A stretch of 10,588 nucleotides of DNA from Ruminococcus flavefaciens (GTDB taxonomy: Bacteria; Bacillota; Clostridia; Oscillospirales; Ruminococcaceae): NCBI GenBank assembly GCA_902792495.1, contig CADBAC010000035.1:1-10588 (forward strand). The letters are read 5' to 3'. Positions within the stretch are counted from its first letter, which is position 1. Every line of letters starts with the position of its first letter. This document shows positions 226 to 9,848 of this stretch, in pieces. Made by a program: the position numbers and the translations under genes. A model generated the notes under the pieces. That model did not search any database and had not been told where the DNA came from. It was given only the letters and a program-made list of their open reading frames with translations.

Positions 226-1215
226 TCAGATGGCGCCCTTGTAGAAATGCATCACGAACCGGGCGCCGCCTTCGGGGGCGTTTTCGGCTTTGAGGGTTCC
301 GCTTTGTTCGGTGACGATACGCCTTGCAAGCGCAAGTCCGATGCCGAATCCGTTTTTCGTGTACTCGGAAGAACGATAGAAACGCTCAAATATATGCGGC
401 AGTTCCTTTTCGGGGATGCCCTCTCCCGTGTCAGCAATTGTGATATTGGATGAAATATTGCTGCCATTTGCCGTCACAGTGACCGTACCGCCTTGTGGCG
501 TATGCTCGATCGCATTTTTCAGCAGGTTCACGATTGCTTCTGAGGTATAATGCAGGTTGCCGATAAACTCCGGCTCTCCGTTGATCTCTGTCCTGATCTC
601 CACGCTTTTCAGTTCAGCAGTAACAGACACGGTTTCTATTGATTGCGCGATCAGCTCACGGCAGGAAACCGTGTTCTTTGCGAATTTTACCGCATCCGCT
701 TCGATGCGTGAAAGGCTCAGCATCGTTTCGATCAGCCATTTCATGCGTGCAAGCAGTTCATACAGATCACGCAGATACTCCATACGTTCCTTTTCCGTCA
801 GTTCAGGATCGTTCATCAGACCGAGTATCATCATCACTGAGGTAAGCGGTGTCCGAAGTTGGTGAGAGATATCCTCCATTGCTTCTTTTGCGAACTGCTT
901 TTCTGTCAGAAGCGCTGAATTCTGCTCACGAAGACGTATGGTCATTTTATGTATTTCCGCAGAAAGGACACTCAGCTCACCCTCATTGTATTCATCAAAT
1001 GAAATGAGATCATCGCTTCGCAGGATACGGTCAATGTCATCACAAAGCTCTATGACTTTATCCCGCCTCTGACAGAACAGCAGTTCATAGAACACAAAAA
1101 ATACTGCTGAAACTATAAGCACTGTCACTGCGCAGCGGATACTGAAAAACAGGCTGGGGACCGCCAAAGCAGCGGTCAGAAGAACGTGAATGAGCCTGCG
1201 CTTTTTGTCTATCAT
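226..1215 (-). CDS. Intramembrane-sensing histidine kinase (Bce-type architecture)
   Basis: This is a 329-residue membrane histidine kinase that would autophosphorylate and pass phosphate to the regulator encoded just upstream. Two TM helices lie at about residues 9-24 and 27-47, with only a few residues between them, so there is no real extracellular sensor domain. A linker leads to the H-box EDISHQLRTPLTS with phospho-acceptor His118. The ATPase domain shows the N-box (EAIVNLLKNAIEHT, about 226-239), G1 (DTGEGI, 262-267), F-box (FERFYR, 276-281) and G2 (GFGIGLALARR, 289-299). All catalytic motifs are intact. Kinases of this shape (BceS, GraS, VraS-like) usually take their signal from a partner ABC transporter, which fits the transporter genes beside it. 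The start is ATG 1215, which overlaps the regulator stop as ATGA, so the two are translationally coupled. Kinase identity is very sure; the Bce-like role is inferred from architecture and context. Confidence 0.93.
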   Translation of the reverse strand: MIDKKRRLIHVLLTAALAVPSLFFSIRCAVTVLIVSAVFFVFYELLFCQRRDKVIELCDDIDRILRSDDLISFDEYNEGELSVLSAEIHKMTIRLREQNSALLTEKQFAKEAMEDISHQLRTPLTSVMMILGLMNDPELTEKERMEYLRDLYELLARMKWLIETMLSLSRIEADAVKFAKNTVSCRELIAQSIETVSVTAELKSVEIRTEINGEPEFIGNLHYTSEAIVNLLKNAIEHTPQGGTVTVTANGSNISSNITIADTGEGIPEKELPHIFERFYRSSEYTKNGFGIGLALARRIVTEQSGTLKAENAPEGGARFVMHFYKGAI

Positions 1216-1886
1216 TCGTCCACCGCCTTGTAGCCGAGTCCTCTGACTGTAACAATAATACGGGGATTTTGTGGATCGTCCTCGATTTTTTCACGCAGAC
1301 GACGGATATAGACACTCAGCGTATTATCCGATACAAATTCTTTCGTCAGCGACCACAGTTCCTCTGCGAGTCTGTCACGGGAAAGAAGCTGATTTTTATT
1401 TGAAAAGAACACCAGCAGCAGGCGGTATTCCAGCGCCGACAGCATCATCTCCGCACCGTTTTTGTACACGATACCTTTTATGGGGTCAATGGTTATATGA
1501 CCGCATTGCAGGATCCGCGACATTTTCTGATATCTCCGCATGACATTTTTCATACGGGCAAGAAGCTCTCTTGTGCCAAAAGGCTTGCCGATGTAATCGT
1601 CTGCACCGATCTCGAATCCTGCGACTGTGCAGGCTTCGTCTGCGGATGCCGTTATGAAAATGACGGGAGTATCGTTCTGTGCCTTGATAGCTGCACAGAC
1701 TGAGTATCCGTTGCCGTCTTTAAGCGAAATATCAAGCAGTACGCAGTCGTAAGCATTTTTCTCAAACAAGCGCAGAGCGTCCTTTTGTCCGTTTGCATAG
1801 TCCGTCTGATAGCCCTCGGAATTGAGAAAGCGCAGCAGAAATTTTGCAAGCTGTTCATCGTCCTCAATAAGCAGTATTTTAGGCAT
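1212..1886 (-). CDS. OmpR/PhoB-family response regulator
   Basis: This 224-residue DNA-binding response regulator is the partner of the downstream kinase. The receiver domain (about 1-118) has the acidic pair D9/D10, phospho-acceptor D52 (in VLLDISL), T79, and K101 in the KPF motif. The C-terminal winged-helix domain (about 130-224) ends with the typical SVYIRRLREKIEDDP...VRGLGYK pattern. The start is set by the ribosome site: AGGAGG (1896-1901) lies 8-9 bases before ATG 1886. An in-frame GTG at 1895 overlaps that SD and is unlikely to be used. The stop overlaps the kinase ATG (ATGA). The likely target is the promoter of the adjacent ABC operon, where a TNACA-N4-TGTAA box is visible. The leader between its promoter and SD is almost wholly a MITE-like element. 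Confidence 0.94.
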   Translation of the reverse strand: MPKILLIEDDEQLAKFLLRFLNSEGYQTDYANGQKDALRLFEKNAYDCVLLDISLKDGNGYSVCAAIKAQNDTPVIFITASADEACTVAGFEIGADDYIGKPFGTRELLARMKNVMRRYQKMSRILQCGHITIDPIKGIVYKNGAEMMLSALEYRLLLVFFSNKNQLLSRDRLAEELWSLTKEFVSDNTLSVYIRRLREKIEDDPQNPRIIVTVRGLGYKAVDE

Positions 1887-1907
1887 TGCCGTCACCTCCT
1901 GTTCATG

Positions 1908-2076
1908 TTAAGGCAACACCGCACAAAGCCCGCCTGACGGCTTTGCACTGAATCTGCGGACATATTTTCCGTCATCTTGCACAGAAATTCCTTGACATAC
2001 GATAGTATTCTATACAATCTGACGAAAAAATCTGTCGGCGCATCTTCAGCACAAGCTTTGTGCGGTGTTGCCTTAA
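1908..2076. mobile_element. MITE-like element with 22 bp perfect terminal inverted repeats
   Basis: Bases 1908-1929 (starting TTAAGGCAACACCGC) are the exact reverse complement of 2055-2076 (ending GCGGTGTTGCCTTAA). The ends enclose 125 bp with no coding capacity. The ends begin with TTAA, itself a palindrome, so a TA or TTAA target duplication cannot be separated from the repeat. The size (169 bp), perfect ends and lack of genes fit a non-autonomous miniature element mobilised in trans. From memory, similar AAGGCAACACCGCACAAA ends recur in Ruminococcus genomes; that needs a search. It lies 4 bp from the SD of the response regulator gene on one side and next to that gene's -10 on the other. 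Confidence 0.65.
1992..2018 (+). promoter_or_regulatory. Possible promoter inside the MITE-like element
   Basis: A perfect TTGACA (1992-1997) is followed after 15 bp by TACAAT (2013-2018). The spacer, including ATACGATAGTAT, is partly palindromic. It points on the + strand, out of the element and antisense to the 3' end of the permease-hydrolase gene. The short spacer makes activity doubtful. Confidence 0.3.
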
Positions 2077-2077
2077 T

Positions 2078-2106
2078 ATTATATCATTTTACTCTAATTA
2101 ATGCAA
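2078..2106 (-). promoter_or_regulatory. Extended -10 promoter for the response regulator-kinase pair
   Basis: On the - strand, TGaTATAAT (2086-2078) is a perfect extended -10. At the ideal 17 bp spacing stands TTGCAT (2106-2101), a weak -35 with 3 of 6 matches, as is usual with extended -10 promoters. Transcription would start near 2071, inside the edge of the MITE-like element, giving a leader of about 185 nt before ATG 1886. The -35 overlaps the foot of the upstream terminator hairpin by two bases. Confidence 0.6.
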
Positions 2107-2132
2107 GCGGACGGAATCAGAACCGTCCGCTT
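2105..2132 (-). terminator. Hairpin terminator after the permease-hydrolase gene
   Basis: A perfect 10 bp stem is formed by AAGCGGACGG (2105-2114) and CCGTCCGCTT (2123-2132), with an 8-nt loop. It begins 4 bp after the permease TAA (2139-2137, - strand). The downstream tract on the - strand (GCATTAATTAG) is only moderately T-rich. It probably separates the ABC transcript from the regulator-kinase transcript, with some read-through likely. Confidence 0.6.
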
Positions 2133-2136
2133 TGTG

Positions 2137-5100
2137 TTATTCTTCTGTCTCTGCAAGGAAGTCAAGTATATGATCTGCGACCTGCTGAGGTTTCTGTAAA
2201 TAGAAGAAACCGTGATCTCCGCCTATGTTTACAATTCTGCAATTGCCGACGCAGTCAGCAAAATAACTGTCATCTTCGGATAATCTCTGATAATACCATT
2301 TCATTCTTTTCCATTCTGATTTTGCAGCGGTTTCGGGATCAAATGCCGGTTTCTTGCCTTCTGCTTTGTAATCTGCTATTACGAAATTATGAAACTCAAT
2401 GAGATCCTCCACGCAGGTTGGAATGTTGGAAAAGTATATTTTAGGTGTATCGGTTGGTTTAACAGTTGTCATAAGCTCACGTTCCGCATTATCCATATTC
2501 AGATATTCGGACGATACCGCAGCAGTTACCGAACGTTTATCGCAGCACTCTATAAGGGCTTTCTCCTCTTCTGAGATAATTGCTGCTCCCGGAGAGACAT
2601 CGTCTGTTTCTTCGTGAGGGAAAAGTCTGTTAAGTCCCAGCCATGTAATCAGGAACATTCTGCGTTTTTCCTTTTTTGCTTCTTTAATTGACGGATAATC
2701 GGAAAGTAAACCAATTTCGGACCAGTATTCATTTTTGGGGATAGACGTACCGCTGAGAAAGATGATCGATTCGACCTCTTCGGGATACATCTCCTCCCAC
2801 ATCATAGCATAATAGCCGCCGTAGGAATGTCCCATAAGCACATAAGGCGCTTCAAATCCGGCATTTTTCAGTCCTGTGCGGTAGTCCTCGACAACCTGCC
2901 TGAGAGTCTGCTTTTTCAGCGAATCATCACTGAAACCGTAACCTGCACGGTCAGGGTAGACGATGGTATTTTCCTTGCCCAGCAGTTCATTGAGCTTTGT
3001 AGTCTCAACAGGAAATGCATAGTTGGGAAAACCCGCAAGTCCGACAATGGTATGCTTTCCGTTTTCTTTGCCTGTGTGATAGACGTTCATTTTGAACCCG
3101 TTTGATTCCACAAGGTTCAGATAGCCTGCTTTAGCGTATTCTTTTCTGTCGTTTCTGTAGGAGATCACACTGTATGTGTGAAGTCCTGCAATGATAAGGA
3201 CTAAAGCTCCCACAACAGCTATGACGCTGTTTCTGAGAATGTGTGACTCCTTTTCATCGGGCTTCATGTCCGTACCTCTTATCTGGTCGGAGAGACTGTC
3301 TGTATTCTGCATCCTGAGCATAACGAATGAGGTAATACATCCGGCTGCAAATGCCGCAAGGGAAGCAGCACCGATACGGACAAATGGCGTTATGTGGTCT
3401 ATCTTTATCAGTTCCATCAGCATTTTTCTTGTCTCTTTGCTTTCATCTACGAAGGATTTTTGCAGCAGGGTGCGAAGTATCGTTTCTGTGCCGAATGTAA
3501 GTAAAGCGCATATTAAAGCCGATATGAATGTTGCCGCAGCTATGAATTGCAGACACTCTATGACAGCCATGCGTCTGAGCTGCTTATCTGTCATTCCCAC
3601 ACACTGAAGCGACGCAAATTCGGCTCTGCGGTTTGCTATACCTGTGGAAATTATGTTCATAAGGTTGATGAGTGCCATAAGTGCGATCATCACATTCAGT
3701 ATAAGAACGCCTGTTTTTATGGCTGAAATGACATTGTGAGTTATCCACTTCGTTTTATAGCCGTCTACGGTGATTTCGACATCATCTATATGCTCGTTGA
3801 AAAAATCGATGATCTTCTTGTAATTCTGAGCATTGTAACCGCCTTCATTGACAGCTGAGAAAAAGCAGACTGCGTCCTCGTCGAAATTGGAGTAGTAATC
3901 ATCTTTTACAGCGTTGTATGTATCGATAGCACCTACAAGCTGTCCGTTGACCATTAATCCTGTTTTGCCTTTGAGCTTTCCTATGATATCAAAAGTGTGT
4001 TCCTTATTTTCAACCTCGGAAGCTCTATAGAGATCGATCCAGTCCATGTTTTCTGTTATCTTGTCTTTATCAATATTTCTGTACTTTGTGGCTATCTGTA
4101 CTGAATTATTGTTTATTTCGGATTCTATGGCCTTGTAATATGAACTTGAAGTATTAAGGATATATCCGCCTGTTTCTGCGAGTTCCTCATAGCTTACCTC
4201 CGGATCATCGCCGAATAACCGCTCATAATACTCTTTATTTACGTAATCAGTATAAAAAGTCTGCGACGAATCGGAAACATACACATCTTTCGATACGATT
4301 ATTCCTATATCTTTGAATAATCCGCTTTCGGCGATCTCTTTTAAGCTATCTTCGTATGAAGTGCCTTTGTAATTGTGACTGATAAGATCCGCTGAAAAAT
4401 CGCTTTCCATCAGATTGAAGTTGATGAAATTCGTTATGCTGTGTTCGACTGATACTGTAAGAGTTGAGAACAGCGCAAACAGTGTGATCGAAACGGTCAG
4501 CGTCAGAACTGTGATGACAAAGCGCTTTTTCTGGCGCCTTGCATTTCGTGAAGCGATACTTCCCGATACACCGAAAAGCAGTCCCGACAAAGTGTGAAGC
4601 TTTACCTTTTTTACGTTGTTTTCACGTGCGGTTATAGCCTCCATGGGAGATTTGCGGATAACCCTCATTCCCACTCCGTAAGCCGAAAGGAATACCCATA
4701 CCACACCCACAACAGCCGCAACAAGAAGCATGAGCGGTTCAATACTGAATGGGAGAGCTGTTATTGTATTTGCCATTCCATGAAAAATATTGGTAAGCCC
4801 TGCATTCAGTATCAGATGATACATCGCATAGGCGAAAACGATACCTGAAACAAGTCCGAAAGGTATTGCAATTATGCATAGTTTCAATGCTTCGGATGTG
4901 ATTATTTTCACTACCTGTTCGGGAGTTGCGCCTATGGATTGAAGCACTCCGTAATGCCGTTCCCTTTCCTTTGACGATATCTCAAATGCGGTGTCTATCA
5001 CAAGTCTGAGAGCAAATGCCATGAATAATGCAACTATAAAGAAAATGCAGAATATCCTCAGCTTTGCAAGATGAGCATTGTCACCGATGGAATCGAGCAT

Positions 5101-5499
5101 CATCAGCTTATCGTTCCACTCATATTTTTTGTCCTGGATAATTTTTTCAAACCCGTTTTTTATGGCGAGATTCTGAAGCCAGCCTTCTCTGTCGCCGATA
5201 TCGTCTTTGAACATTACCGAAGCAGCTACCTTATCATCTTGCATAACATTAAGGATCAGCCTTTCGACATGAGGATCATTATGTATTGCTTCAGCCTGTT
5301 CTTCTGTAATTCCACTTACCAGGAGATGGTAAGGGGCTGAGCTGTAAGTAATATTTTTGTAGTTGTTGATGAAAACGCCGTATAAAACGAATACCATTGT
5401 TATTATTGCCACAGCCACAATAATACTGATAACAGTGAATGCAGATTGCCGTTTCTGTGACCTGATATATCGACCTGCAAGCAGTCTCTCAAATCTCAT
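2137..5499 (-). CDS. Double-FtsX ABC permease fused to a C-terminal alpha/beta hydrolase
   Basis: This 1120-residue membrane protein is the permease partner of the upstream ATPase. TM helices lie at about 19-42, 148-170, 207-231 and 252-276, then 327-349, 597-619, 648-670 and 707-728: two FtsX repeats with extracytoplasmic loops of about 105 and 247 residues. FtsX hallmarks are 'ERERHYGVLQSIGATPEQ' (178-195) and 'RAEFASLQCVGMTDKQLRR' (625-643). A ninth TM (about 757-776) leads to a complete alpha/beta hydrolase (about 790-1120): GLAGFPN oxyanion loop (820-826), YPDRAGYGFSD (848-858), nucleophile elbow GHSYGG with Ser892 (890-895), and a C-terminal GGDHGFF with likely catalytic His1096. The acid residue is not obvious. 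By FtsX topology the hydrolase should face outside (inference). Translation starts at ATG 5499 with GGAGGA 8 bases upstream, overlapping the ATPase gene by 11 bp. The permease and hydrolase calls are secure; the substrate and the benefit of the fusion are unknown, though peptide or lipid antibiotic resistance is a fair guess from context. Confidence 0.9.
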   Translation of the reverse strand: MRFERLLAGRYIRSQKRQSAFTVISIIVAVAIITMVFVLYGVFINNYKNITYSSAPYHLLVSGITEEQAEAIHNDPHVERLILNVMQDDKVAASVMFKDDIGDREGWLQNLAIKNGFEKIIQDKKYEWNDKLMMLDSIGDNAHLAKLRIFCIFFIVALFMAFALRLVIDTAFEISSKERERHYGVLQSIGATPEQVVKIITSEALKLCIIAIPFGLVSGIVFAYAMYHLILNAGLTNIFHGMANTITALPFSIEPLMLLVAAVVGVVWVFLSAYGVGMRVIRKSPMEAITARENNVKKVKLHTLSGLLFGVSGSIASRNARRQKKRFVITVLTLTVSITLFALFSTLTVSVEHSITNFINFNLMESDFSADLISHNYKGTSYEDSLKEIAESGLFKDIGIIVSKDVYVSDSSQTFYTDYVNKEYYERLFGDDPEVSYEELAETGGYILNTSSSYYKAIESEINNNSVQIATKYRNIDKDKITENMDWIDLYRASEVENKEHTFDIIGKLKGKTGLMVNGQLVGAIDTYNAVKDDYYSNFDEDAVCFFSAVNEGGYNAQNYKKIIDFFNEHIDDVEITVDGYKTKWITHNVISAIKTGVLILNVMIALMALINLMNIISTGIANRRAEFASLQCVGMTDKQLRRMAVIECLQFIAAATFISALICALLTFGTETILRTLLQKSFVDESKETRKMLMELIKIDHITPFVRIGAASLAAFAAGCITSFVMLRMQNTDSLSDQIRGTDMKPDEKESHILRNSVIAVVGALVLIIAGLHTYSVISYRNDRKEYAKAGYLNLVESNGFKMNVYHTGKENGKHTIVGLAGFPNYAFPVETTKLNELLGKENTIVYPDRAGYGFSDDSLKKQTLRQVVEDYRTGLKNAGFEAPYVLMGHSYGGYYAMMWEEMYPEEVESIIFLSGTSIPKNEYWSEIGLLSDYPSIKEAKKEKRRMFLITWLGLNRLFPHEETDDVSPGAAIISEEEKALIECCDKRSVTAAVSSEYLNMDNAERELMTTVKPTDTPKIYFSNIPTCVEDLIEFHNFVIADYKAEGKKPAFDPETAAKSEWKRMKWYYQRLSEDDSYFADCVGNCRIVNIGGDHGFFYLQKPQQVADHILDFLAETEE
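3265..3279 (-). promoter_or_regulatory. Relic or active internal ribosome site and ATG at the permease-hydrolase junction
   Basis: On the - strand, AGAGGT (3279-3274) lies 6 bases before an in-frame ATG (3267-3265, Met745). Met745 falls between the natural end of an FtsX permease (...DSLSDQIRGTD) and a short charged segment plus TM that looks like the start of a membrane-anchored hydrolase. It could allow a separate 376-residue hydrolase to be made from the same mRNA, or be a leftover of two merged genes. Confidence 0.4.
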
Positions 5500-6199
5500 T
5501 GCCGCCGTCCTCCCTCAGTGAAGCATTGGTTTCATCGGAAATTATCCTGCCGTCGCTGAGTACGATTATCCTGTCGCACTGTTCGGCGATATTTTCATCG
5601 TGAGTGATGATCAGTATGGTTTGTTTCAGTTCACGGTTTGAGCGGCGGAAAAGCTCCATTATCTCGGCACTGTTTTTGCTGTCAAGATTGCCTGTGGGTT
5701 CATCTGCGAGAATCACCTGAGGCGAAGTGAAAAGCGCCCTGCCAATAGAAACCCTCTGCTGCTGACCGCCGGACATCTGCGACGGAAGATGATCTCTTCG
5801 CTCTTTCAGCCCCAGCATATCAATGATTTTTTCGAGATGCTCCTTATCGGGCTTTCTGCCGTCCATCATCATGGGGAGAGTGATATTCTCCTCCGCAGTA
5901 AGAACAGGTATCAGATTGTAGAACTGATATATAAGTCCTACCTGCCGTCTGCGGAAGATGGCGAGCTCCCTGTTATTCTGCTGAAAAACGTCCTGACCGT
6001 CAAGATATATCTTTCCCGAAGTTGGGCGGTCGACCGCACCGATCATGTGAAGGAGCGTGGATTTTCCCGAACCGCTCGCCCCGACGATAGCTACCATCTG
6101 TCCCCTTGGTACGCTGAATGACACACCGTCCACGGCTCTGACTTCATTCTCTCCTTTGCCGTATACTTTGCAAAGGTTTTCTACTTTCAATAATTCCAT
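5489..6199 (-). CDS. ABC transporter ATP-binding protein (MacB/LolD/BceA type)
   Basis: This 236-residue cytoplasmic ATPase powers the FtsX permease encoded next. Walker A GASGSGKST is at 40-48, Q-loop Gln92 (IYQFYNL), signature MSGGQQQR at 142-149, Walker B VILADEP with Glu167, D-loop GNLDSKN (170-176) and H-switch His200. The 'Y.GEN.V.AV.GVSF' start and 'SGGQQQRV.I.RAL...P..ILADEPTGNLD' core are typical of the MacB/LolD group that pairs with FtsX permeases. The start is ATG 6199, with GGGAGGT seven bases upstream; an in-frame GTG at 6238 overlaps the -10 promoter element and is rejected. The gene overlaps the permease start by 11 bp, so subunit synthesis is coupled. All motifs are intact. 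Confidence 0.94.
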   Translation of the reverse strand: MELLKVENLCKVYGKGENEVRAVDGVSFSVPRGQMVAIVGASGSGKSTLLHMIGAVDRPTSGKIYLDGQDVFQQNNRELAIFRRRQVGLIYQFYNLIPVLTAEENITLPMMMDGRKPDKEHLEKIIDMLGLKERRDHLPSQMSGGQQQRVSIGRALFTSPQVILADEPTGNLDSKNSAEIMELFRRSNRELKQTILIITHDENIAEQCDRIIVLSDGRIISDETNASLREDGGNEI

Positions 6200-6226
6200 A
6201 ACGATACCTCCCGTTCTTTTGACTTT

Positions 6227-6235
6227 ATTATAGCA
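6227..6235 (-). promoter_or_regulatory. Extended -10 promoter of the ABC transporter operon
   Basis: On the - strand, TGcTATAAT (6235-6227) is a perfect extended -10 about 28 bases before the ATPase ATG, giving a start near 6220 and a leader of about 20 nt. No good -35 is visible at 16-18 bp (AATGAT/ATGATA/TGATAT), which suits a promoter that needs an activator. A candidate regulator box lies just upstream. Confidence 0.6.
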
Positions 6236-6265
6236 CACTTATATGACAATATCATTATCCTAATC

Positions 6266-6279
6266 TTACAGTTTTGTCA
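6266..6279 (-). promoter_or_regulatory. Candidate BceR-type response-regulator box
   Basis: On the - strand, TGACAaaacTGTAA matches TNACA-N4-TGTAA, the site I recall for BceR-like regulators in Firmicutes, at all nine fixed positions. Its centre is about 52 bases upstream of the inferred start, a normal activator position. It also overlaps the last codons of a 31-codon MobC-like remnant, so chance cannot be excluded. Confidence 0.4.
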
Positions 6280-6475: not shown

Positions 6476-6638
6476 ACAAGCGGTGCGAATTGTGGGTTGC
6501 CGTTAGTGCGCCCACGATTTGCCGAGCTTGCGATTTGTGTTAGCCCCTGCGGGGCAATTTTGCATATGAGAACCTGTCCACATAGGGATTCACGCACGTC
6601 TTTTCGTCAAATTTTGCCGGTGACTGCGTTAAAAATCC

Positions 6639-7045
6639 TTGGAGGGCGACAGCCCGTCGGAGCTGTGGCTGAGAGTGCAGGACAAGAAGTCCACAAACAA
6701 GCACTGCCACACCAACAGAAAAGCCTATAATTCGTGGCTAATAGGTATCATGAAGTGCAGGAAATGTGGTCATTCCGTTCTCGTTGATATGCAGAAAAAG
6801 TCAGAGAAAAACGTGCGCAGGTATCTCCACGATAACGGCTGGCTCACCATTGACAGGTGCGTTGAGAGGAAGTATCGTATCAGGATCGATGATATCGAGG
6901 ACAGCGTTGCGTTTATACGGCTATGTGTGCAAGAATAGAGCAGATCGAAATCGCCCATAAGCAAAAAGAAGCTCCCGACGCTGAAGCCGAGAGCATAAAG
7001 GCTGATATTCTGAAACTTGATAGTGAGATCAAATTCGACATTTGA
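6639..7045 (+). pseudogene. Large serine recombinase, truncated and frameshifted C-terminal fragment
   Basis: In the frame from 6639, the translation includes 'SELWLRVQDKKSTN', then 'NSWLIGIMKCRKCGHSVLV'. This is the characteristic 'ELW..V...L..N ... SWL.G..KCG.CG' passage at the recombinase domain/zinc-ribbon boundary of large serine recombinases. The second cysteine pair of the ribbon is not evident and the frame stops at 6938. A -1 shift just before that stop opens a frame reading 'ARIEQIEIAHKQKE...DILKLDSEIKFDI' to TGA at 7045, which resembles the coiled-coil region that follows the ribbon in these enzymes. The catalytic N-terminal domain is absent: a TAA stands directly before 6639. The gene is dead and marks an old integrative element. 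Family call good; exact borders approximate. Confidence 0.7.
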
Positions 7046-9413: not shown

Positions 9414-9661
9414 GATGTGGCTCGTTTTAAATAAAGCAAGGACCGCCAAAGGCAGCCCCTACAGAAACAGATCTTTGTAGGGGAGCCCGCCCTCGGGCTC
9501 CCACAGATCCCATCGCACCTAAATGGAACGCCGAGGGCGGCGTTCCCTACATATTGCGGTCACAACAAGCATTTATGGTGGAGTGACAAGGGCGCTCGGA
9601 AAGCGCCCATACAAATTTGAACATTGCCAATAAAGAAAGGACGGCGATTGTGACGGTGTTC

Positions 9662-9688
9662 CGAGGGCGCACACTGTGCGCCCCTACA
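9662..9688. repeat. 27 bp direct repeat, copy 2
   Basis: Identical to 9387-9413, with the palindrome at 9665-9683. The copies are 275 bp apart in the same orientation. Confidence 0.85.
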
Positions 9689-9690
9689 AA

Positions 9691-9848
9691 AAGCTGCATC
9701 AACCTAAATAAACAAGAAGTGCCAACGAGCGAAAGCAGAGTATGCGAAACGTACAGAGTAAGCGAGCGCAGCAAGCGAATCGTGAAAAGCGCCGCCGCTC
9801 GCTCAGCGGCCGAATCGTGAAATGGGGTCAAGCTGCCGTCAGCTTGGG
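9691..9848. other. Non-coding stretch with short direct and inverted repeats
   Basis: No gene is supported. CGAATCGTGAAA occurs at 9776-9787 and 9811-9822 flanking a GCCGCT/AGCGGC hairpin. A CAAGCTG-CCGT-CAGCTTG hairpin (9829-9846) sits 4 bp before the -35 of the next promoter. It lacks a T-tract, so it is not an obvious terminator. ORFs here on both strands have low-complexity, Arg/Ser-rich translations. Confidence 0.5.

Follow-up and report, generated by a model that had tools for sequence, protein, structure and literature searches.

A permease-hydrolase fusion with exchanged outer domains in Ruminococcus: a possible resistance module of gut bacteria

The stretch of DNA analysed here (the window) is the complete 10,588-bp contig CADBAC010000035.1 from a 2.57-Mb genome of Ruminococcus flavefaciens, which is 79.6% complete and consists of 531 contigs. 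Its minus strand carries, at positions 2137..5499, one uninterrupted open reading frame (ORF) with an ATG start that encodes a permease-hydrolase fusion protein of 1120 aa; frame 1 of the plus strand over the same positions is riddled with stops, the coding strand being the minus strand. An earlier inspection of the letters alone (the sequence-only reading) had described this gene as an FtsX permease joined in one 1120-codon frame to an alpha/beta hydrolase, and the domain search agreed: FtsX (PF02687) was found in two stretches with 68 bits (cut-off 25.5) and Abhydrolase_1 (PF00561) at residues 836-924 with 33 bits (cut-off 25.8). In a protein search with the hydrolase part, which admitted targets 0.55-1.75 times as long as the query and scored the 8000 candidates sharing most words with it, 67 of the 71 matches carried PF02687 as well as the hydrolase, with 49-98% identity in the matched hydrolase part. 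A scan of genome contigs recovered the fusion in a single frame at 27 of 78 distinct loci; the remainder were unfused permeases or genes cut by contig ends, together with one locus (L032) at which the fusion is split by a frameshift directly after the ninth transmembrane (TM) segment. Among the 27 fused loci, only those of R. flavefaciens FD-1 (96% identical) and of strain YRD2003 have titles that are not marked as metagenome-assembled genomes (MAGs). A lost stop codon, a sequencing error or chance as origin of the fusion is ruled out by the 67 fused matches, L032 being the one frameshifted case. Homologues are thus not consistently split, and the fusion is real and no artefact. We found no description of such a permease-hydrolase fusion in the open-access literature searched.

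The permease half (residues 1-750; 3250..5499, minus strand) is a duplicated FtsX permease with 8 predicted TM segments according to Pfam, hydropathy and a structure model, and a further segment, TM9 (residues 758-776; 3172..3228, minus strand), links it to the hydrolase. Nine TM segments in total are given by family-averaged hydropathy, and the structure model has nine long helices. Two extracytoplasmic domains (ECDs), both predicted to lie outside, are placed between TM1 and TM2 and between TM5 and TM6: the acidic ECD1 (residues 40-148; 5056..5382, minus strand) and ECD2 (residues 346-598; 3706..4464, minus strand), which holds the least conserved stretches of the protein and, judging by the alignment and segment trees described below, is exchanged as a block between backbones. 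ECD2 has the size of the large ECD of Bce-type permeases (about 200-250 aa). Three inner loops are rich in lysine and arginine and the outer domains are acidic; the inner loops at residues 168-200 and 619-648 are without clear positive charge. The hydrolase domain is therefore predicted to be extracytoplasmic, as the sequence-only reading had placed it. That reading had also called the setting Bce-like, which for the permease did not hold up. With a profile that combined the permease of the window with 14 unfused relatives, the closest solved relative was YtrF (E 1.8e-11), followed by LolC; MacB and FtsX came after these as weak matches only (E 0.025 and 0.07). BceB has 10 TM segments and a single ECD between TM7 and TM8, according to the portions of the reports cited (PMC5786555; PMC10314905; PMC12484072), so that identity with a canonical BceB is ruled out by the TM count (8 plus TM9 against 10) and by ECDs that follow TM1 and TM5. 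The combination of a PF02687 permease with a LolD/MacB-type ATPase is that of the FtsX-fold (type VII) ATP-binding cassette (ABC) transporters.

The alpha/beta-hydrolase domain (residues 785-1120; 2140..3147, minus strand), assigned from Pfam and the structure model, is predicted to lie outside. The model has the alpha/beta-hydrolase fold, and its structural matches, among the matches listed, are hydrolases alone. To position the catalytic residues we used 63 aligned fused proteins of more than 1000 aa, the window protein included and five shorter fused proteins left out, together with 129 other rows (128 stand-alone relatives and the protein P0068). The candidate nucleophile Ser892 (codon 2824..2826, minus strand), in the motif GHSYGG at residues 890-895, is invariant in the fused proteins, as is His891 (63/63 each), and is kept in 128 of the 129 other rows. 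His1096 (codon 2212..2214, minus strand), in the motif GGDHGFF at residues 1093-1099, is present in 60/63 fused proteins, the other three having gaps, and in 129/129 other rows. Position 916 at the end of beta6 (codon 2752..2754, minus strand) is Asp in 57/63 fused proteins and Asp or Glu in 127/129 others, and is Ser in the window protein and in P0001-P0005. Position 1032, which follows beta7 (codon 2404..2406, minus strand), is Asp in 60/63 fused proteins and Asp or Glu in 117/129 others. An acid is kept at one or other position in 192/192 aligned sequences; the window copy retains only that at 1032. This pattern is consistent with a shifted catalytic acid, Asp1032, in the window copy, which may use this residue, be weak or be inactive, because the usual beta6-end Asp is replaced by Ser. 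Of the apparently complete hydrolase seen in the sequence-only reading, the fold and the conserved Ser892 and His1096 thus stood, with Asp1032 as the candidate for the catalytic acid. The ratio of nonsynonymous to synonymous divergence (dN/dS) of the hydrolase part is 0.09-0.28 across seven close pairs and 0.24 between window and FD-1, and the domain therefore appears to be under constraint. It is quite improbable that the domain, at least in the window's clade, is a non-cutting domain for binding or sensing: Ser916 and the variable residue 890 of the nucleophile elbow (G 26, P 25, A 9, V 3 among the 63) would suit such a role, but the near-invariant Ser892 and His1096, the acid retained in every sequence and the low dN/dS speak against it.

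The genes around the fusion form a co-directional set on the minus strand in the order ABC ATPase, fusion gene, 241-bp gap, OmpR-family response regulator and histidine kinase. The ATPase gene (5489..6238, minus strand; possibly starting only at the ATG at 6199) and the fusion gene share 11 bp, an overlap also measured at 23 of 25 loci, and the best model of the ATPase is LolD with 231 bits, which is below the cut-off of 307.75. An ATPase gene was found at each of the 26 fused loci with a contig that extends to this position (the contig of L029 starts inside the gene). The regulator (1212..1895, minus strand) was assigned by domain models, and the kinase (226..1215, minus strand; 329 aa), assigned from its ORF and domain models, has two N-terminal hydrophobic segments separated by a few-residue loop, without an extracellular sensor. 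The same architecture was seen at the N termini of the linked kinases (12 of 30 inspected). Linkage of a regulator more than 80% identical could be tested at 25 fused loci and was seen at 23, the gene being absent from L014 and L021 and divergent at L023, and a kinase is linked at 22 of 24; L027 and L028 could not be tested for the regulator, nor these and L029 for the kinase. The kinase/regulator linkage proposed from the letters is thereby substantiated. A linked, sensorless two-TM kinase with its regulator is the arrangement of Bce-type systems, and the kinase appears from its sequence to be of the intramembrane-sensing type.

Upstream of the ATPase gene lies a conserved box, ACTGTAAGATTNNGATAATGNNNTTGTMA (6244..6272, minus strand), which we regard as a putative regulator site. 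Its 27-base core is found with at most 3 mismatches at 23 of 24 fused loci and with 4 at L035, mostly 44-47 bp ahead of the assumed start codon, and the motif TATNNT follows 11 bp past the box in 18/24; in the window a -10-like TATAAT preceded by TG matches the consensus at 6227..6232 (minus strand). The best of five mononucleotide shuffles reached 5 mismatches or fewer at 0/24 loci. At up to 3 mismatches the box has a single copy in the genome, that of this operon, and its backward control has 0 copies. Among 20 rows labelled unfused, 9 carry the box with up to 3 mismatches and 12 with up to 5. Five of these 9 rows are cut, split or incomplete (L032, L033, L039, L043 and L046), and the remaining four comprise the sister operons L034, L036 and L037 (see below) plus L042. 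The unfused operons L040 and L042 contain three and two tandem permease genes, respectively.

The likely origin of the fusion was approached from both of its parts. Stand-alone relatives of the hydrolase (631 matches of about 360 aa) have an N-terminal TM segment in 125 of 129 rows and are 25-33% identical to the window domain. In 10 examined contexts of such genes, two of them orthologous, we found no related FtsX permease next to the hydrolase and no consistent partner gene; an ORF adjoining the stand-alone gene of L105 has a weak ABC match (24%), and FD-1 has a stand-alone hydrolase about 7 kb from its cassette (L107). In a permease tree of 84 rows, whose supports are less reliable because a quick method was used, all 28 fused rows fell within one group of 31 rows (SH-like approximate likelihood ratio test, SH-aLRT, 99). 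The other three rows of this group are the frameshifted L032 and the contig-end cuts L033 and L043. The unfused L034, L036 and L037, from operons with the order ABC ATPase, permease, response regulator and histidine kinase, join next with a support of only 83, and their permeases stop exactly where the TM9-hydrolase extension starts in the fused proteins. The simplest reading is that a gene for a TM-anchored hydrolase was joined once, in frame, to the end of a permease gene in one Ruminococcus clade, and that the fusion probably arose inside an older operon of this order. Of the 125 genomes covered from the genus (68 at least 90% complete), 10 have the full-length fusion, a patchy distribution, and in a family sample of 197 genomes it was confined to the window's genome, besides the split copy in G019, the genome of L032. 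In P0068 (684 aa) the same kind of TM-anchored hydrolase is fused to a choloylglycine-hydrolase-like domain (PF02275/PF03417), and in the more distant P0069 a hydrolase is joined to an acyltransferase-3 domain; these are other routes by which such hydrolases were recruited. YRD2003 has, at L109 2985-5531, a kinase, a regulator and only a 177-aa C-terminal hydrolase piece, which looks like a decayed second cassette.

The domains of the fused proteins differ sharply in synonymous divergence (dS). Between L075 and L022, dS rises from 0.10 (TM part) and 0.11 (ECD1) to 0.60 (ECD2) and 1.35 (hydrolase); between L021 and L044 it is 0.076 in ECD2 against 1.56 in the hydrolase, and between window and FD-1 0.014 in ECD2 against 0.197 in the TM part. 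Three of seven pairs (L024/L026, L014/L028 and L009/L035) had more even values across domains. At the nucleotide level L075 and L022 are 90-100% identical for residues 1-390 and 91-100% identical for residues 601-750; identity drops to 58-83% in ECD2 from residue 391 and to 44-84% from residue 751 to the end, and is back at 87-99% in the regulator-kinase stretch. Percent identities over backbone/ECD1/ECD2/hydrolase were compiled for 4005 pairs among 90 fused proteins. Near-identical backbones with foreign outer parts occur in L075/L022 (98/95/62/62), in P0023/L075 (99/98/94/64) and in the isolate YRD2003 (L011) compared with L044 (92/94/36/97). The reverse is seen in P0048/P0052 (71/51/34/99), window/P0004 (71/48/40/89) and P0046/L044 (85/74/90/50). 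Many exchanged blocks are 88-94% identical. At 75% identity and single linkage there are 41 types of ECD2, 19 of ECD1 and 17 of hydrolase, and one hydrolase type is paired with 15 ECD2 types. The four segment trees reject one another in approximately unbiased (AU) tests with p <0.005 (26 of the 28 DNA rows, the cut loci L028 and L029 being left out). Expressed per 100 codons, the loss of likelihood is 26 for the ECD2 halves, 67-85 for the hydrolase halves and 43-74 among backbone pieces, and 96-598 between domains, where the lowest values (96-105) are those between ECD2 and the TM6-8 piece. The exchange is mainly, not purely, domain-wise, because the AU test also rejects swaps within domains. 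On this evidence, ECD2 and the hydrolase have been exchanged separately, by recombination, on a common chassis. A coupling of ECD2 and hydrolase beyond that expected from the backbone is weak (partial rank correlation 0.20, with 1 of 500 permutations as high), as tested in 68 proteins that excluded L028, L029, P0003, P0004, P0067 and near-copies.

We consider it very improbable that metagenome assembly produced the mosaics as artefacts and that the fusion is an ordinary pump with vertical inheritance. The loci are mostly MAGs and some exchanged blocks, as in P0048/P0052, are 99% identical, as such artefacts would produce, but the isolate YRD2003 is itself a mosaic relative to L044, the window differs in the same blockwise manner from the isolate FD-1, and blocks of 88-94% identity are too diverged for fresh chimeras. 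Nine unfused pairs, also mostly MAGs (backbone identity 79-92%, ECD2 65-92%), had no comparable jumps at domain borders, in what is a small control that includes no backbone above 92%.

The surroundings of the operon point to movement as well. No two of 41 flanks of more than 1 kb from fused loci share a stretch of more than 400 bp at a blastn E <1e-30. Between window and FD-1, dS is 0.116 in the fusion gene and 0.146 in the ATPase gene (raised by differing assumed starts), against 1.11 in folC, 0.42 in folT, 1.0 in the regulator and 2.1 in the kinase (near saturation). In FD-1 (G198) the cassette and the folC region are on different contigs (C12 and C116, respectively), and the ORFs in the 19 kb surrounding the cassette showed no folC. 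From this contrast and placement, the ATPase and fusion genes moved or recombined recently, without the adjoining two-component system, and the dS values show transfer relative to the housekeeping genes. None of 47 matching plasmid records covers 80% of the protein, and no relative was confirmed on viral contigs. A 169-bp element with 25-nt terminal inverted repeats (96%), resembling a miniature inverted-repeat transposable element (MITE), occupies 1908..2076 between the fusion and regulator genes. Its end sequence has 69 copies in the genome at up to 2 mismatches (backward control 0). The gap between these genes is 71 bp in FD-1 and -3 to 344 bp at other loci, and the element could uncouple the two-component system from the pump in the window strain. 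A 10-bp hairpin directly after the fusion-gene stop (2105..2132) was not assigned as a terminator because its minus-strand tail is not T-rich. Upstream of the operon, a second dispersed repeat at 6555-6665 has 27 matches in the genome of the window, its own copy among them, with many more in FD-1, and window positions 9659-9846 have many partial matches in FD-1. A tetrahydrofolate (THF) riboswitch (RF01831; 9087-9185, minus strand, 89.5 bits) lies upstream of a folT-type energy-coupling factor (ECF) S component and folC. Close to the FD-1 cassette lie genes for a type I restriction HsdR protein and for a relative of AlkZ (L107 16218-19001 and 5397-6158).

Taken together, the FtsX-type permease, the sensorless kinase, the regulator box and the fast-exchanging large ECD fit a module for sensing and resisting antibiotics that act on the cell envelope. 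Our preferred reading, with a probability of a little under one half (about 0.48), is a horizontally mobile, self-regulated module of resistance to peptide or lipopeptide antibiotics by which rival gut bacteria would attack the cell envelope. ECD2 would act as the outer receptor that binds the drug or a drug-target complex, as its variability and the examples of BceB and NsrP suggest. The sensorless two-TM kinase, whose type and linkage were observed, would read the ATP-driven movement of the permease through the membrane, and the regulator would turn on the operon at the conserved box. The FtsX-type ABC unit would then release the membrane-bound drug, which the serine hydrolase, tethered on the predicted extracytoplasmic side and with its conserved Ser and His in the fused chain, may cleave beside the pump. 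Separate recombination of ECD2 and hydrolase on the shared chassis would alter specificity. In outline this agrees with the combined sense-expel-hydrolyse device of the sequence-only reading, in which an ester- or lactone-containing antibiotic would be a hypothetical target of the enzyme. The ECD sets the substrate spectrum of BceAB-type transporters and the SaNsrFP ECD binds bacitracin, according to the part of the report cited (PMC12484072); in the nsr operon, such a transporter and two-component system stand alongside a membrane-anchored serine protease that cuts nisin, as the relevant section describes (PMC5786555).

Several observations weigh against this preferred reading. The action of the hydrolase on a drug is its weakest step, and the window copy carries Ser916 where Asp is usual. 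Sister operons with the same two-component system and box carry no hydrolase, and the fused loci L014 and L021 have no adjacent two-component system. The permease, judged by TM count and nearest relatives, is closer to YtrF and LolC than to the 10-TM BceB and is no canonical BceB. Pieces within domains also reject each other in the AU test, with smaller likelihood losses, and divergence overall tracks the backbone in the 68 proteins (Spearman 0.83 for ECD2 and 0.62 for the hydrolase). Some of the mosaics may be chimeric assemblies, because only FD-1 and YRD2003 are not titled as MAGs.

Two other functions were weighed against resistance. In the first, the unit would remodel envelope lipids or lipoproteins: a LolC/YtrF-like transporter would extract a lipid-linked molecule, the hydrolase would remove an acyl or ester group, and the two-component system would report the state of the envelope. 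YtrF and LolC as best solved relatives, the LolD model of the ATPase (although below its cut-off) and the stand-alone TM-anchored relatives that occur without an adjoining related permease would suit this, but a housekeeping substrate would predict neither the exchange of outer domains nor the patchy presence in the genus or the transfer, and we regard it as unlikely. It is improbable, too, that the pump exports the precursor of a peptide or small signal which the hydrolase trims outside, as in the ZmaM and ClbP prodrug systems. In ZmaM an ABC half-transporter carries a fused extracytoplasmic peptidase, as stated in the part of the report cited (PMC9889268), and module swaps would equally fit types of signal specificity. 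Against this, the operon is a sensor-plus-pump set, and no precursor or biosynthetic gene was seen among the seven window proteins and five FD-1 neighbours scanned, although no dedicated cluster search was made. A known anti-phage system was rejected: the fusion protein had no PADLOC match, and the matches of its neighbours to models that share ATPase, receiver or kinase domains, the best being mad3 with 114 bits for the ATPase, were taken as generic.

If the resistance reading is right, the swapped outer parts suggest a device that can be retargeted one part at a time. More tentatively, and at clearly lower odds, one may picture a three-part device in which a transferable pump-kinase chassis carries a reshuffled receptor and a tethered enzyme, with combinatorial antibiotic specificities in gut bacteria. 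We know of no earlier case of a sense-and-pump module with the destroying enzyme built into the pump. The family amounts to a natural experiment, offering the same type of regulator and box with and without the enzyme and many combinations of receptor and enzyme. If the outer domains set specificity, these combinations would map each part to a drug and point to peptide antibiotics of the rumen and gut.

Among known systems, the stand-alone TM-anchored alpha/beta hydrolases have the same domain and an N-terminal TM segment but are unfused. YtrF and LolCDE, as type VII ABC systems, share the FtsX fold and a LolD-type ATPase; they are single-repeat chains (YtrF 436 aa, LolC 399 aa) without a fused hydrolase. 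To our knowledge they have no two-component system of this kind alongside. ZmaM of zwittermicin and the long ClbP relatives likewise have an extracytoplasmic hydrolase fused to a part of an ABC transporter, but theirs is a beta-lactamase-superfamily peptidase with a half-transporter and is found in biosynthetic clusters, as described in the portion of the source cited (PMC9889268). BceAB-BceRS of Bacillus subtilis has the sensorless kinase, FtsX-type bundles in the ABC unit and an ECD of 200-250 aa, according to the sections cited (PMC10314905; PMC5786555; PMC12484072), whereas BceB has 10 TM segments, one ECD between TM7 and TM8 and no hydrolase. The nsr operon of Streptococcus agalactiae (NsrFP, NsrRK and SaNSR) shares an ABC unit, a large-ECD permease, a two-TM kinase, a regulator and, within the operon, a TM-anchored extracellular serine hydrolase, as far as the cited part describes it (PMC5786555), the extracellular position being predicted in our case. 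SaNSR is a separate serine protease, whereas the enzyme described here matches alpha/beta-hydrolase families and is fused to the C terminus of a permease with 8+1 TM segments.

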